The notes under the pieces were generated by a model that did no database searches, had not been told where the DNA came from, and saw only the letters and a program-made list of their open reading frames with translations. The translations under genes and the position numbers were made by a program. Shown in pieces: positions 4,102-9,345 of a DNA stretch of 20,432 bases (position 1 is its first letter; each line of letters opens with the position of its first letter). This DNA comes from a virus: IMG/VR virus record IMGVR_UViG_3300025646_000492, positions 1-20,432 of that record; one strand, written 5' to 3'.

Positions 4102-4944
4102 ATGAAACCTAAGCACTCCAAGTACAAAAATACTGGGATACTATTTGAACTGTTGACAAGACAAATTACGTCGGAGACTATTTCGAATTCCCAACCAAAG
4201 GCTGTAGGTATCTTAAGAAAATTTTTCGGTAATAACTCAACTCTTGTAAAAGAGTACCAGATATATAATGCGTTACTTAATAAAAGATTTGAGAAAGAAG
4301 CAAGCGCTACTGTTCTCATTGAAACATTAATAGACGCTCACTCTAAACTTAACAAGTCTGTTTTAAGAAGAGAAAGATACAACCTAGTTAGAGAAATTAA
4401 AGAAACCTATAATATAGAGGATTTTTTTAAAGCAAAAATCCCTAATTATAAAGTATATGCTAGCGTCTATAATCTTTTAGAAAATCAAGATGCTAATCCT
4501 ATGTCAATTGTAAATTCTAAAGTAGCTATTTTAGAACATATTACAAATAAAAATCTTCCAAACAAGCCCAAAAAAGAAATGGTTATGGAAGAATATGAAA
4601 AATTCGATACAGAAACCAGAGCCCTTACTTATAAATTGTTGATGGAAAAGTTCAATGAAAAATACTCTGGATTAGCAGATAACCAAAGAACCCTTCTTAA
4701 AGAATATGTTTATAATGTTTCTAATAGCCCTAAACTTAAATCTTTTATTAACAAAGAAATTGTAAGAGTAAAAGCTGAAATTGAAACACTAGCTGAAAAT
4801 ACTGATCAAGTTACTAAAATTAAACTTACTGAAGTTAAAAACTTGATTAAACCCCTTTGTAAAAAATCATTTGTTCATGATGATAATGTAATTAATCTTC
4901 TTAATTATTATGAGTTAGTTAACGAACTCAAATCTGCTCAATAA
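4102..4944 (+). CDS. Conserved T4-like phage protein of unknown function, probably prohead-associated
   Basis: 280 aa, mostly charged alpha-helix with no signal peptide or membrane segment. The N terminus, HSKYKNTGILFELLTRQIT at residues 4-22, resembles a family I associate with marine T4-like phages; no function is known to me. It lies where T4 has the prohead-core genes 67 and 68, between gp20 and gp21. Its stop overlaps the next start as TAATG, so translation is probably coupled. The position suggests a role in core or head assembly, but nothing in the sequence shows an enzymatic activity. Confidence 0.85.
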   Translation: MKPKHSKYKNTGILFELLTRQITSETISNSQPKAVGILRKFFGNNSTLVKEYQIYNALLNKRFEKEASATVLIETLIDAHSKLNKSVLRRERYNLVREIKETYNIEDFFKAKIPNYKVYASVYNLLENQDANPMSIVNSKVAILEHITNKNLPNKPKKEMVMEEYEKFDTETRALTYKLLMEKFNEKYSGLADNQRTLLKEYVYNVSNSPKLKSFINKEIVRVKAEIETLAENTDQVTKIKLTEVKNLIKPLCKKSFVHDDNVINLLNYYELVNELKSAQ

Positions 4945-5144
4945 TGAACGTAGATAAACTTAGAAATTTAATTCGTGAACTCATTAAAACCGAGTTAGAA
5001 GAGGCTAATTCACTAGGAGCTTCTGGAGCAGGTACTACAATCCAAACTGGACAAAGTGATGCTTATGCTACTCCTAAAGCTTTTTTAAAACCTTCTGACT
5101 GGAAAAAGAAAAAGAAAAAAATTAAATACGCTGAAAGTAAATAA
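4944..5144 (+). CDS. Small prohead protein mimicking the capsid protein's cleavage site and N-terminal arm
   Basis: 66 aa. Residues 1-20 form an amphipathic, charged helix ending LEE, a good (L/I)xE site for the gp21 protease before Ala21. Residues 20-42 match residues 60-82 of the major capsid protein at 17 of 23 positions; both contain NSLGASG, GTTI and GQS. The remainder is short and very basic, with a run of six lysines at residues 54-59. I infer that it is targeted to the prohead, cut by gp21 to leave a basic peptide of about 46 aa, and stays in the head near DNA or the shell lattice. It sits at the T4 gene 67/68 position and is translationally coupled to its upstream neighbour by a TAATG overlap. 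No named function is known to me. Confidence 0.85.
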   Translation: MNVDKLRNLIRELIKTELEEANSLGASGAGTTIQTGQSDAYATPKAFLKPSDWKKKKKKIKYAESK

Positions 5145-5288: not shown

Positions 5289-5896
5289 GCAATTTAATCG
5301 TAGATATCATCCCTTTAAAAGTTGACCGTTTATTAATTGAATCGTCAATTAAAGCTGGTGGTCCCCTCATTGTAGAGGGTATTATCCAAAGAGCTGGTGT
5401 TAAAAACCATAATGGTCGTATTTACGAAAGAGCTATCCTTGAAAGAGAAATGACCAAATATATTGATGGTCCCGTTAAGCAAAATAATGCATTGGGTGAA
5501 TTAGACCACCCCGATTCATCTGTTATTAACTTAAATAACGTATCTCATAAAATTAATAAGTGTTGGTGGAATGGAAATGATGTACATGGTCAAATTGAAA
5601 TCCTTCCAACCCCAGCAGGTAACATAGCTAAAGCACTATTTCAATCAGGAGTACCAGTTGGTATCTCATCTCGTGGAATGGGTTCAGTACAAGAAAATTC
5701 AGATGGTGTTTTAATGGTACAAGAAGATTTTGATCTATTATGCTTCGATCTAGTATCTACTCCATCTACACCTGGTGCTACATTAACACCTCAACAATTA
5801 AAAGAAAGTATAGAGCACCCGACAGCTGATTACACTAAAGTACACAATATTATCCGTGATATTATTTGCGATAACACAGGTATGTGTAAGTGTTAA
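5285..5896 (+). CDS. 21: Prohead core serine protease, gp21-like
   Basis: 203 aa (T4 gp21 is 212). It matures the prohead by cutting scaffold, core and capsid proteins after (L/I)xE sequences. The family hallmarks are visible: GRIYERAIL at residues 44-52, a catalytic His75 in GELDHP, and a nucleophile Ser128 or Ser129 in VGISSRGMGS. The conserved SVQENSDGVLMVQEDFDLLCFDLVSTPS-type segment follows. It overlaps the upstream 46-aa gene by 4 nt. Its TAA stop overlaps the stop of the minus-strand gene: the TTAA at 5893-5896 serves both strands. Candidate substrates in this window are gp22, gp23, the 66-aa protein and possibly the protein at 5-499. Confidence 0.95.
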   Translation: MSNLIVDIIPLKVDRLLIESSIKAGGPLIVEGIIQRAGVKNHNGRIYERAILEREMTKYIDGPVKQNNALGELDHPDSSVINLNNVSHKINKCWWNGNDVHGQIEILPTPAGNIAKALFQSGVPVGISSRGMGSVQENSDGVLMVQEDFDLLCFDLVSTPSTPGATLTPQQLKESIEHPTADYTKVHNIIRDIICDNTGMCKC

Positions 5897-6078
5897 TCGC
5901 GATTTAAAAGTCCTTTAATAAAGTTGTAAACAAATACAACAATCATAATTGGCCATAAAACAATTGACCATAGGCGTTCTCCAAATGTAACGTCCATCCC
6001 ATTCCATTTAATAACGTGTTCAATGCCAAACGTTACAATCAAGCCTATTAACAGGTAGTAAGTAATTAATGTAATCAT
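5893..6078 (-). CDS. Small two-helix membrane protein on the opposite strand
   Basis: 61 aa. Two hydrophobic segments, about residues 3-20 and 35-55, are separated by a short polar stretch (KWNGMDVTFGER); the C terminus is basic (KGLLNRD). It is the only confident minus-strand gene in the window. It converges on gp21 and shares the palindromic TTAA stop with it. On its own strand, ATCTTTATA, one mismatch from the late-promoter-like word, lies 20 nt before its ATG. Small membrane proteins of this look occur in marine T4-like phages with unknown function. A holin-like role or a membrane anchor for prohead assembly are possibilities, but neither is shown by the sequence. Confidence 0.75.
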   Translation of the reverse strand: MITLITYYLLIGLIVTFGIEHVIKWNGMDVTFGERLWSIVLWPIMIVVFVYNFIKGLLNRD

Positions 6079-6118: not shown

Positions 6119-6140
6119 TTTGGGTTTCCAAATTTTTTTT
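6119..6140 (+). terminator. Weak rho-independent terminator candidate upstream of the gp22 leader
   Basis: TTTGG (6119-6123), loop GTTT, CCAAA (6128-6132) and then eight T residues (6133-6140). The stem is only 5 bp, so termination may be partial. An alternative pairing of nearby AAACC with GGTTT also exists. It directly precedes a promoter-like motif, as the strong terminator does at 9318-9345. Confidence 0.35.
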
Positions 6141-6149
6141 ATATTTATT
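6141..6149 (+). promoter_or_regulatory. Late-promoter-like motif ATATTTATT upstream of the gp22-gp23 unit
   Basis: Matches ATATTTATA except for the last base, as does the copy before 19287. It lies 124 nt before the gp22 ATG, far more than the usual 17-27 nt, and the extra distance is filled by a structured leader. Confidence 0.45.
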
Positions 6150-6253
6150 TCCAGTAAGCATACACTATCTTAAAATAGTGTCCCTGGATTTTAAAACAAA
6201 TCCCTATTAGAGATACTAAAATCTCTATTTCCCGTATTTTTATTTACTGGAAG
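6148..6253 (+). promoter_or_regulatory. Structured leader of gp22-gp23: three matched hairpins in a closing stem
   Basis: TTCCAGTAA (6149-6157) pairs perfectly with TTACTGGAA (6244-6252), extendable by a G-U pair at each end. Inside are three hairpins. Hairpin 1 is ACACTAT/ATAGTGT, 7 bp (6162-6181). Hairpin 2 is GGATTT/AAATCC, 6 bp (6186-6203). Hairpin 3 is TAGAGAT/ATCTCTA, 7 bp (6208-6227). Each loop is exactly 6 nt and A-rich (CTTAAA, TAAAAC, ACTAAA). A CCC follows or overlaps each 3' arm (6182, 6202, 6231). The whole would fold as a four-way junction ending 21 nt before the gp22 ATG. It matches no RNA family I recognise. If transcription starts just after the motif at 6141, the 5' arm of the closing stem would be partly missing, so the hairpins are better supported than the closed junction. 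Confidence 0.65.
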
Positions 6254-6261
6254 CCAATTAA

Positions 6262-6269
6262 AAAATTAA
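6262..6269 (+). promoter_or_regulatory. A-rich start signal AAAATTAA before gp22
   Basis: AAAATTAA ends 4 nt before the ATG, with no Shine-Dalgarno sequence. The same octamer precedes four other starts in the window. Confidence 0.4.
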
Positions 6270-6273
6270 ACAA

Positions 6274-7566
6274 ATGGCTAAAGAATTATTAAAAGAGGCT
6301 ATTGCCGATGCAAAAGCCGTTAGAGAAGTCGCTTTGCAAAATGCTAAAATGGCATTGGAAGAAGCGTTCGACTCTAAACTAAAAAACATGCTTTCTGCTA
6401 AATTAGCAGAAGAGCTTGAAGAAGATGTCGAACTTGAAGAGGCATTTGATATCGACCCAAACGATATTGATTGGGAAGATATAGAACCAGATGCTGAAAA
6501 CAGACCTGACTATCAAGAGGGTACAATATATGGAACCTCAGATGATGGTCGTGAATGGAAAGCTCATGGTTACTACACTGAATTTGATGGTTATCAAGTT
6601 ATTGGTGATTTAGAAGCAATCGAGGAAACGTCTGAAGGTATGTCTTACGAAGAGGACGATGAACTCGATGAAGAAATCAACCTTGACGAACTTATGGCTG
6701 AATTAGAATCACTTGAAGAAGGTGACGACGAAGAAGAAGAAGAAGAAGCCGTAGAAGAAGGACTCAAAGATTTTATTAAAAACGTAAAAGCAGCTGCTGG
6801 CGGTGAAGGTAAAAAAGTTGGTGACTGGGTAGCTAAGCAAAGCCCTGAAATGATTGCTAAGGCAAGAGAAGACAAGGGTGCTTACCAAGACTTAGTCGCT
6901 AAACTAAGAAAAGACCTAGGCCAAGAAGATGGTGATACTATGGCTAGAAGATTTGATGCTCTTTCTAAAATCGTTAAAGGTAAAGAACTTGGTACTTACA
7001 TTTCTAAAGATGCTTCTGGTATTTTAGGTACTCGTAAAATGGAAGAAGCTGAAGAATCTGAAGAAGATACTAATGAATCGTTCGATATCGATGCTTTAAT
7101 CGCTGAAATTGAAGCTGAACTCGAAGAGGGTAAAATGAAAAAAGCCGATGACGAAGAAGTAAAAGAAGCTAAGAAAAAAGACGACGAAGAAAAGGCTAAA
7201 ATGGAAGAAGAACTCGCTGAGGCTCTTTCAACAGTCGCTACCCTTCAAGAAACTATTTCTGAGATGAACCTTCTCAACAGCAAACTCCTCTACTGCAACA
7301 AACTCTTCAGAGCTAACGCGTTAAATGAAGCCCAGAAAGTTAAGGTAATTGACGCCTTAGACAAAGCATCTACAACAGGTGAAGCTAAATTGGTATTTGA
7401 AACACTTCAAGAATCATTTACATTCACAGGTGTAGAAAAGAAAGCAATTAAAGAAGGTTTAGGACGTGCTTCTAAGCCTGCTGGAGTTGCTCCTAAAAAG
7501 GTTATTACGGAATCAGTAGATGACACTGTGTTAAGATTCCAAAAACTCGCAAACATTAAACTTTAA
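6274..7566 (+). CDS. 22: Prohead core scaffolding protein, gp22-like
   Basis: 430 aa, longer than T4 gp22 (about 270). It forms the internal scaffold around which gp23 assembles and is degraded by gp21. The conserved core is the C-terminal third, with the helical NLLNSKLLYCNKLFRANALN at residues 332-351 and the end LRFQKLANIKL at 420-430, probably the capsid-binding tail. The N-terminal part is very acidic with many LEE and LxE sites. Two non-acidic inserts interrupt it: residues 76-118, with GREWKAHGYYTEFDGYQVI, and 163-255, with KKVGDWVAKQ and MARRFDALSKIV. These look like small folded domains and explain the extra length. It lies 12 nt upstream of gp23, in the same transcript. Confidence 0.93.
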   Translation: MAKELLKEAIADAKAVREVALQNAKMALEEAFDSKLKNMLSAKLAEELEEDVELEEAFDIDPNDIDWEDIEPDAENRPDYQEGTIYGTSDDGREWKAHGYYTEFDGYQVIGDLEAIEETSEGMSYEEDDELDEEINLDELMAELESLEEGDDEEEEEEAVEEGLKDFIKNVKAAAGGEGKKVGDWVAKQSPEMIAKAREDKGAYQDLVAKLRKDLGQEDGDTMARRFDALSKIVKGKELGTYISKDASGILGTRKMEEAEESEEDTNESFDIDALIAEIEAELEEGKMKKADDEEVKEAKKKDDEEKAKMEEELAEALSTVATLQETISEMNLLNSKLLYCNKLFRANALNEAQKVKVIDALDKASTTGEAKLVFETLQESFTFTGVEKKAIKEGLGRASKPAGVAPKKVITESVDDTVLRFQKLANIKL

Positions 7567-7578: not shown

Positions 7579-9294
7579 ATGAATGTTAACTCATTATTAG
7601 AGGGCGCTTCACCGCTTCAACACCAACAAGCTGAATCAGCTAAGTTGGCTAGAAAGTGGGAAAAGTCCGGTCTCTTGGAAGGCTTAAACGGCCACGAGAG
7701 CGAAAAATCAAACATGGCTGTTCTCCTTGAGAACCAAGCTAGACAATTAATCAACGAGAGTAACTCGTTAGGTGCTTCAGGTACTGGTACTACTATTTCT
7801 GCAGGTCAGAGTGAAGCATGGGCTGGTGTTGCTCTTCCATTGGTAAGAAGAGTATTCGGTGAAATCGTTGCTAAAGACCTCGTGTCTGTTCAGCCAATGA
7901 ACCTTCCTTCAGGCCTTATCTTCTACTTAGATTTCCAGTATGGTGATGCTAAAAATGGATTCGGTGCTGGTGATTCTTTGTACTCTGTAGACAGCACTAC
8001 TCTTAAAGAAACCCAATTACCAGGTGTTGGTCAAAGAAGCGGTCTTTATGGTGCTGGTACTTTCGGGTATTCTATCAATGAAGTAGATTCTGCTGCACTT
8101 TACATTACTGGTGGTGCTGAAGGTGAGGCTGCTGGTCTTGACGCTGTTATTGGTGCTGCTACCGCATCTCATGGTACTTTATCTGCTGCTGATTTCTTCA
8201 CTTTTATTAATGGTGATAGTGAATTCTCTGCATCTGTTGCAAACACTGCATGTGATGTAATCAGAGTTTCTCTTGATTCATTAACTGATGAAGATCTTGA
8301 AGGTGTAAGAGCATTTGAAATCCTTAGTGGTTCTACTAATGTTACTGTTTACAATCAGTTTACTAAAGTAGGTACTGATTACATTGAATTCTTAGTAGAT
8401 AACACTGCTAATGCTTTTGTTAACGGTGCTAGTAACTTAGTAGTCAGATACCACAAAGGCCCAGATAACCTTAACGATAGAGGTGATTATGAAGATGGTA
8501 CTTCAACAGCTCCTTCTCAAGGTGATGGTAATGTTTCAACCCTTGAAATCCCAACTATCGACGTTAAGTTGAACAGCGATACTGTTACAGCGAAAACTCG
8601 TAAGTTAAAGGCTCAATGGACACCAGAATTCGCTCAGGATTTGAATGCTTACCACAGCATTGATGCTGAAGCTGAATTGACTTCTATTCTTTCTGAGTAC
8701 ATTTCAATGGAAATCGATCTTGAAATCCTCGACATGTTGATCAGAAACGCTGATACTACTAACCACTGGAGTGCAAACGTAGGTGTTGAGACTTCTAGCA
8801 CAGGTGTTAGAACATCTGCTGGTAGTAACGAATACTACACCAGAATGTCTTGGTTCCAAACCTTGGGCATCAAGCTTCAGTCTGTTAGCAACACTATTCA
8901 CCAGAAGACTCTTCGTGGTGGCGCTAACTTCATGGTAGTTTCTCCAAAAGTAAGCACAATTTTAGAATCTATTCCTGGATTCGCTGCTGACTCTCCTGGT
9001 GATTCTAACAAGTATGCGATGGGTGTTCAGAAAATCGGTGCTATCAACTCTAGATACACTGTTTACAAGAACCCATACATGACTGAGAACGTGATCCTTA
9101 TGGGATACAAAGGCAACCAGTTCCTTGAAACAGGTGCTGTATTTGCTCCATACATCCCATTGATTATGACTCCACTTGTATACGATCCAGTATCATTTAC
9201 TCCACGTAAGGGAATCATGACTCGTTACGCTAAGAAGATGGTTCGCCCAGACTTCTACGGTAAGATCTTTATCCACGATCTTAACTTAGTGTAA
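7579..9294 (+). CDS. 23: Major capsid protein, gp23-like
   Basis: 571 aa (T4 gp23 is 521). It has the HK97 fold and forms the hexamers of the head. The delta region is residues 1-60, ending LINE before Ser61. This fits the (L/I)xE rule, and T4 gp23 is cut after residue 65. The mature arm NSLGASGTGTTISAGQSEA is followed by the family core LVRRVFGEIVAKDLVSVQPM at 88-107 (T4: LVRRAIPN...GVQPMN). Other conserved parts are AQWTPEFAQDLNAYHSIDAE, GANFMVVSPKVSTIL and YKNPYMTENVILMGYKGNQF. An insert rich in small residues around 160-310, variable in this family, may be a surface domain. Its codon choice is more biased (GCT, GGT, TCT) than its neighbours', as expected for high expression. A strong terminator follows. 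Confidence 0.98.
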   Translation: MNVNSLLEGASPLQHQQAESAKLARKWEKSGLLEGLNGHESEKSNMAVLLENQARQLINESNSLGASGTGTTISAGQSEAWAGVALPLVRRVFGEIVAKDLVSVQPMNLPSGLIFYLDFQYGDAKNGFGAGDSLYSVDSTTLKETQLPGVGQRSGLYGAGTFGYSINEVDSAALYITGGAEGEAAGLDAVIGAATASHGTLSAADFFTFINGDSEFSASVANTACDVIRVSLDSLTDEDLEGVRAFEILSGSTNVTVYNQFTKVGTDYIEFLVDNTANAFVNGASNLVVRYHKGPDNLNDRGDYEDGTSTAPSQGDGNVSTLEIPTIDVKLNSDTVTAKTRKLKAQWTPEFAQDLNAYHSIDAEAELTSILSEYISMEIDLEILDMLIRNADTTNHWSANVGVETSSTGVRTSAGSNEYYTRMSWFQTLGIKLQSVSNTIHQKTLRGGANFMVVSPKVSTILESIPGFAADSPGDSNKYAMGVQKIGAINSRYTVYKNPYMTENVILMGYKGNQFLETGAVFAPYIPLIMTPLVYDPVSFTPRKGIMTRYAKKMVRPDFYGKIFIHDLNLV

Positions 9295-9317: not shown

Positions 9318-9345
9318 AAAGGGCCGCAAATTGCGGCCCTTTTTT
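9318..9345 (+). terminator. Strong rho-independent terminator after the capsid gene
   Basis: AAAGGGCCGC (9318-9327), loop AAATT, GCGGCCCTTT (9333-9342) and a T run to 9345: a 10-bp GC-rich stem, the strongest terminator in the window. It ends the gp22-gp23 transcript. The next promoter-like motif begins one base later. Confidence 0.95.

Follow-up and report, generated by a model that had tools for sequence, protein, structure and literature searches.

In the RNA phages MS2 and PP7, a structural protein, the coat protein, recognises a short operator hairpin through its loop bases and represses translation, and in phage P22 the scaffolding protein exerts post-transcriptional feedback on scaffold synthesis. 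In phage HK022, transcripts open with a pair of hairpins, the put RNAs, whose target is RNA polymerase at early promoters. For T4-like phages, we know of no RNA-level setting of the scaffold/capsid ratio or of the timing of their synthesis. In the gene 43 operator of T4 and RB69, a hairpin of the mRNA precedes the start codon, by about 40 bases in T4, and mediates autogenous repression; its loop bases (UAAC; UAAA in RB49) are especially relevant for binding (PMC3014915).

The window, as we call the whole 20,432-base virus-record fragment analysed here, carries a T4-like head-gene cluster comprising large terminase, portal, head protease, a scaffold-position gene and the major capsid protein. 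The scaffold (gp22-position) gene (6274-7566, + strand), first in its unit, has no Pfam or PHROG match of its own, and its name rests on its position between the head protease (phrog_207) and the major head protein (phrog_138); the gp23-like major capsid protein gene comes second (7579-9294, + strand; phrog_138, E = 2.8e-75). The capsid protein displays 54.7% identity to that of Flavobacterium phage immuto, which together with Microcystis phage Mel-JY01 is the closest annotated isolate, and we therefore infer that the window belongs to the 'far-T4' side of the T4-like phages. The motif NSLGASGxGTTIxxGQSxA, perhaps a head-targeting or protease-processing signal, is common to a 66-aa ORF (4944-5144) and the N-terminal part of the capsid protein, and LRFQKLA occurs in the mid-region of the first ORF (5-499) and at the C-terminus of the scaffold-position protein, suggesting a head signal in common. 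Between the protease gene and the scaffold leader, a hydrophobic 61-aa ORF on the minus strand (5893-6078) has no Pfam or PHROG match and has a counterpart of equal length in L001 (3557-3742, minus strand).

A late-promoter-like box, TATATTTAT (6140-6148, + strand), heads nearly every homologous leader, and transcription is predicted to start at about 6153, a position placed on the assumption of T4 late-promoter geometry. The motif TATAT[TG]TAT has five matches in the window, all on the + strand and within the intergenic DNA that makes up 4% of the sequence, and is likely the late promoter consensus of this phage group, unlike T4's TATAAATA. Besides the box at the scaffold gene, such boxes lie at 9345, 10060, 19257 and 19916, each of them + strand and intergenic. 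Directly 5' of the scaffold-gene box, a weak terminator-like stem followed by eight T can be read from the sequence (TTTGG-gttt-CCAAA; 6119-6140, + strand), which is too weak to be detected by a terminator scan; sister clades (L007, L091 and others) possess a strong GC-rich terminator, AAAGGCGCC..GGCGCCTTTTTT, just before the promoter. Downstream, the inverted repeat AAAGGGCCGCAAATTGCGGCCCTTTTTT (9318-9345, + strand), likewise found by reading, resembles a strong intrinsic terminator and ends the scaffold-capsid unit. The region would form the 5' leader of a late mRNA encoding the scaffold and capsid genes only. Co-transcription of the capsid gene with the gene upstream of it is suggested by metatranscriptomes from other Bacteroidetes phages (PMC9723584). 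The first-pass annotation had proposed that an RNA leads the gp22-gp23 unit, and the leader does lie downstream of the late-promoter-like box and ahead of both genes; it contains no ATG within 6153-6273 from which a leader peptide could begin.

Three hairpins were found on the + strand of the leader: hairpin 1, ACACTAT-cttaaa-ATAGTGT (6162-6181; 6160-6181 with its conserved AU 5' flank), which covaries; hairpin 2, GGATTT-taaaac-AAATCC (6186-6203), restricted to the window's clade; and hairpin 3, TAGAGAT-actaaa-ATCTCTA (6208-6227; 6206-6227 with its conserved AU 5' flank), the most conserved element. CCC stands 3' of the 3' arm of each, with TTT intervening at hairpin 3. The first-pass annotation had enclosed these hairpins in a closing stem, and hairpins, stem and CCC are all present where it placed them. 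The fold of 6140-6262 reaches -27.6 kcal/mol, whereas shuffled versions average -12.6 (z = -5.4, 0/200 shuffles), and that of 6153-6273, which leaves out most of the closing-stem 5' arm, gives z = -4.1 (0/200 shuffles). Since the minus strand folds comparably, the strand cannot be picked by folding alone, and the + orientation follows from the late promoter and the gene, together with G-U pairs and a loop consensus that is specific to one strand.

To compare the leader among relatives, IMG/VR was searched with capsid proteins, yielding about 200 loci, and the sequence preceding the gene upstream of the capsid gene was gathered from 135 distinct IMG/VR loci. The leader was found in about 130 IMG/VR loci as well as in immuto, Mel-JY01 and a 484-kb huge phage. 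In nearly all 135 loci, TATATTTAT or TATATGTAT and a short spacer precede hairpin 1, about 23 nt separate it from hairpin 3, and the ATG follows after 16-54 nt; the distance from hairpin 3 to the AUG is mostly 16-33 nt and ranges from 16 to over 50 nt. In a first, sequence-only alignment of 46 leaders, with hairpins 1 and 3 scored as the named structure, hairpin 3 was paired in 100% of cells, a percentage biased upwards because the 46 leaders had been chosen for a clear hairpin 3, and both-sided changes occurred at six of its seven pairs. The covariation score of hairpins 1 and 3 together was 0.56, against 0.19 for shuffles and 0.06-0.18 for slid partners. The double changes and the held-out matches of the covariance model do not depend on the choice of leaders in the same way. 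This model found 89 of 100 loci, each time at the scaffold leader, and in 975 kb gave no match outside leaders at E <= 0.1. In the 89 model-matched leaders, whose alignment was fitted to the covariance model and leans towards it, pairing reaches 99.4% in hairpin 3 and 72-83% in hairpin 1.

To hairpin 3, parsimony on pair states over a capsid-protein tree (FastTree) assigned 57 double changes that compensate, 10 that are single-sided and only 1 that breaks a pair; to hairpin 1 it assigned 71 compensatory, 20 single-sided and 45 breaking changes, some of the latter presumably reflecting 7-nt-loop forms misaligned by one or two columns. Covariation among related intergenic regions, to which the first-pass annotation had looked for a decision, is decisive for hairpins 1 and 3, and its proposal of selection on RNA structure is borne out by a fold better than shuffles and by compensatory changes in these two hairpins. 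G-U pairs and the strand-specific loop favour an RNA rather than a DNA inverted repeat, and from these comparisons we regard it as virtually certain that a conserved structured RNA exists at the scaffold-capsid leader.

Hairpins 1 and 3 follow a common design: AU stands 5' of a 7-bp stem, U-A is the usual loop-closing pair, and the loop measures about 6 nt, in most cases exactly 6. AU lies directly 5' of the stem (flanks ending AT) in 49 of 50 well-paired copies of hairpin 1 and in 87 of 89 copies of hairpin 3; the loop ends in AAU in 33/50 and 83/89, respectively, and in AAA in six of each. AAA endings in both hairpins are found in the window's clade (the window, L001, L005, L095 and L096), a joint change, uncorrected for ancestry, that would be expected if one factor reads both hairpins and that may be a single event. 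This loop and flank signature, common to the two hairpins, is compatible with the earlier idea that a protein binds the loops. Of the three matched hairpins originally described, 1 and 3 are indeed matched and the middle one proved lineage-specific: hairpin 2 is kept in L001, L005, L093, L095, L096 and L098 and is absent or unrelated elsewhere. Being clade-specific, with a loop that lacks the ending common to hairpins 1 and 3, it was rejected as a third equal site.

The spacer between hairpins 1 and 3, typically about 23 nt, measures 14-28 nt in 81 of the 89 leaders. All eight longer spacers (37-43 nt) hold a perfect 6-7-bp hairpin of 15-17 nt and differing sequence, with a remainder of 21-27 nt; seven of these leaders look like one clade and L150 represents a second. 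These lengths suggest that the distance between hairpins 1 and 3 matters. The spacer that contains the window's own hairpin 2 is of ordinary length.

The 5' arm of the closing stem, TTCCAGTAA (6149-6157, + strand), is fully complementary to TTACTGGAA (6244-6252) and is not conserved. It begins one base past the promoter box and straddles the predicted start. Among nine leaders of the window's clade, a fully complementary arm is present only in the window and a partial one in L096, L097 and L004; in near relatives, with the 3' arm almost unchanged, the 5' arm reads TTTTAACAA, TTTGGAA, TTGGGAA or AACATATAAAGAAA. As the 5' arm changes without compensation, the outer 9-bp stem was rejected as part of the element, and this point of the first-pass annotation is not supported. 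The accompanying idea that a late start near 6149 would delete part of this stem appears right, and the start-site transcript is predicted to form another pairing, hp4, instead.

In hp4 (6229-6252, + strand), UUCC-C-GUA (6229-6236) pairs with UAC-U-GGAA (6245-6252), with 7 bp and one mismatch, when the late transcript as predicted is folded to its minimum free energy. By this modelling, hp4 uses the closing-stem 3' arm, whose partner is then probably the UUCCCGUA that follows hairpin 3; the outer stem reappeared on folding a longer upstream transcript. Across the relatives, a UUUCC-like sequence after hairpin 3 co-occurs with GGA[G/A] before the ATG (37/12/6/34, Fisher 1e-8, uncorrected for ancestry), and in leaders where this GGA[G/A] is a Shine-Dalgarno sequence, folding pairs it with UUUCC at 63% on average (31 leaders). 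This association and pairing make hp4 a plausible clade-dependent output switch; it is absent in many clades without a Shine-Dalgarno sequence. In one clade, that of L138, L147, L149 and relatives, a CUUAUUU that overlaps hairpin 3 at its 3' arm has its complement, AAAUAAG, beside the Shine-Dalgarno sequence, a possible alternative fold competing with hairpin 3 that is kept in some members, not all.

Bacteroidia ribosomes ignore Shine-Dalgarno sequences via bS21/bS18/bS6 (PMC9976891). A Shine-Dalgarno sequence precedes the scaffold gene in 12 of 12 tested records with bS21 and in 5 of 27 without detected bS21 (Fisher 1.6e-6, uncorrected for ancestry, with many records incomplete; the observation draws on L026, L045, L047, L064, L143, L157, L165, L167, L168, L178, L185, L188, L198 and L206). 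Phage bS21 may re-enable Shine-Dalgarno use, or the hosts may simply differ. An obligatory partnership with bS21 was rejected, as the protein is absent from the complete genome of immuto, which carries the leader.

Over 26 whole records, the scaffold leader is the best model match wherever a convincing match exists, and the held-out complete genomes of immuto (E = 6.4e-4; leader region 125519-125609) and Mel-JY01 (E = 0.0027) contain exactly one match each. A simple stem-loop regex gave chance matches only in the immuto genome, having missed the real site because its loop is longer. The huge phage LR756508 (484 kb; L212, 2901-3001) scores weakly (E = 2.4) at the correct place, and inspection by eye revealed both hairpins, the second with the loop ACTAAT, before a scaffold-like gene whose protein resembles the window's scaffold protein at its start. 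A context-blind DNA scan of IMG/VR for hairpin 3, with a pattern that represents the UUUCC-bearing clades, returned at least 80 loci, and the capsid gene lies 0.9-1.5 kb downstream in 66 of 66 testable loci among the matches listed; the contigs of the remaining 14 end before a capsid gene could appear. These searches show the element to be single copy per genome and exclusive to the scaffold-capsid pair.

A general late-mRNA leader was rejected, since the covariance model gives no convincing second copy and the other late-promoter-like boxes of the window and immuto have short leaders: the gap from box to ATG is 125 nt at the window's scaffold gene versus 18-29 nt at the three other boxes with a gene in the window, and 98 nt at the scaffold gene of immuto versus about 12-31 nt at its other intergenic boxes. 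Nor is the leader common to all T4-like phages, the covariance model having no match in the complete genomes of T4, S-RIM2, S-CRM01 and RM378, four negatives that include two cyanophages; the gap from protease to gp22 is 30-51 nt in T4, S-RIM2 and Sf-CH1b. Rfam 15 gave no match at the leader even at E <= 1 and no gathering-threshold match in 12 relatives, and a tRNA or tmRNA identity was rejected with 0 such genes found by ARAGORN in the window. No terminator-like site was found on the + strand at the leader, where the hairpins are AU-rich and followed by CCC or UUUCC. We found no description of the leader in the open-licence literature, an earlier report elsewhere being possible, and the words promoter, intergenic, hairpin and scaffold are absent from the report of Roux et al. 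2015 on Far-T4 phages.

We favour, with a probability of about 0.6, the reading that the leader is a bipartite cis-acting operator, recognised by a protein, which controls how the scaffold-capsid mRNA is translated. Its two parts would be the like-built hairpins that lie about 23 nt from each other close to the transcript 5' end, and one protein would recognise both loops and, by binding, adjust the translation or lifetime of the mRNA. In clades with a Shine-Dalgarno sequence, its pairing with UUUCC in hp4 could give a bound protein a means of keeping the start site either closed or open. Simple ribosome occlusion by a protein on hairpin 3 is doubtful in the window's clade, where 46 nt separate the end of this hairpin from the AUG. 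The most natural binder would be a phage assembly protein acting as feedback. We put forward only tentatively, with the odds against it, that the leader is an operator dedicated to assembly feedback, in which both hairpins are held at once in a two-site clamp, either by unassembled scaffold or capsid or by a small RNA-binding protein of the phage, and scaffold-capsid translation is thereby matched to head assembly across the far-T4 radiation, huge phages included.

Other roles were weighed against this operator. Hairpin 3 mostly lies 16-33 nt before the AUG, as might a translational enhancer that recruits or positions ribosomes or a phage or host translation factor and favours the scaffold-capsid mRNA late in infection, and some of these phages encode bS21, which in phages has been proposed to favour late phage mRNA (PMC9723584), near the unit; however, the leader occurs in phages without detected bS21, complete immuto among them, and the AUG spacing varies from 16 to over 50 nt while the spacing of hairpins 1 and 3 is kept, and we rate an enhancer as rather unlikely. 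Slowed decay of a very abundant late mRNA by 5'-proximal hairpins, with no dedicated binder, would suit a hairpin 1 that begins about 10-20 nt from the predicted 5' end, a capsid mRNA that must be abundant, and a structure conserved with arm sequence free. Such generic protection, which we consider unlikely, does not require that AAU loop ends and AU flanks be conserved in hairpins 1 and 3 alike, nor a fixed spacing with compensating middle hairpins; moreover, the stems are AU-rich and weak, and leaders are short at the remaining late promoters of the window and of immuto.

Two hairpins right after the promoter, at the transcript 5' end, also recall nascent RNAs that act on RNA polymerase, like the HK022 put antiterminators, but a single late promoter per genome is involved, a strong terminator follows right after the capsid gene, and a tuned translation start (hp4) would be superfluous, which leaves this role very improbable. 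Inverted repeats just past a promoter can be operators read by a DNA-binding protein, and the minus strand folds similarly; we give paired DNA sites hardly any credence, as hairpins 1 and 3 have unlike arms within a single genome, arm sequences change freely from phage to phage, the loop consensus is strand-specific and always in the same orientation, and G-U pairs occur.

With hairpins kept while their letters are swapped, the leader very probably acts as a genuine, hitherto unnamed control element of head building. The RNA is compact and covaries strongly; it is tied to two genes only and has persisted across wide divergence, up to 484-kb phages. Because an isolated, culturable phage (immuto, on Flavobacterium sp. 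LMO8) carries it, the question is directly testable, and the twin-hairpin site would offer a clean bait for finding a new phage RNA-binding protein.

Set against known systems, the leader has in common with phage translational operators of the gp43/gp32 type a structure that is conserved ahead of a start codon and present once, at the gene it would regulate. Viewed as a possible metabolite riboswitch, whose hallmarks are an expression platform and a large, invariant pocket for the ligand, it has its conserved residues mainly in loop ends and flanks, and the alternative pairing hp4 is found in some clades only. It has in common with the HK022 put RNAs two hairpins at the transcript start, but stands at one late promoter whose unit ends in a terminator. 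An unpaired base in the stem of hairpin 1 in one clade recalls the MS2 and PP7 operators, which differ in belonging to single-stranded RNA phages and in being a single hairpin over the start codon, while binding of a structural protein is purely hypothetical here. Autoregulation by the P22 scaffolding protein concerns another phage type and does not imply a comparable leader RNA. In the T4 gene 32 operator, too, the 5' leader is structured and a phage protein binds it to repress translation (PMC3014915), but this operator comprises a pseudoknot and an A+U-rich stretch and serves another gene. The nearest known way of working, by analogy and not by membership, would be that of the T4 gene 43 operator, in which DNA polymerase binds one hairpin of a replication gene, whereas the leader described here presents two hairpins with AAU or AAA loop ends at the scaffold-capsid unit.
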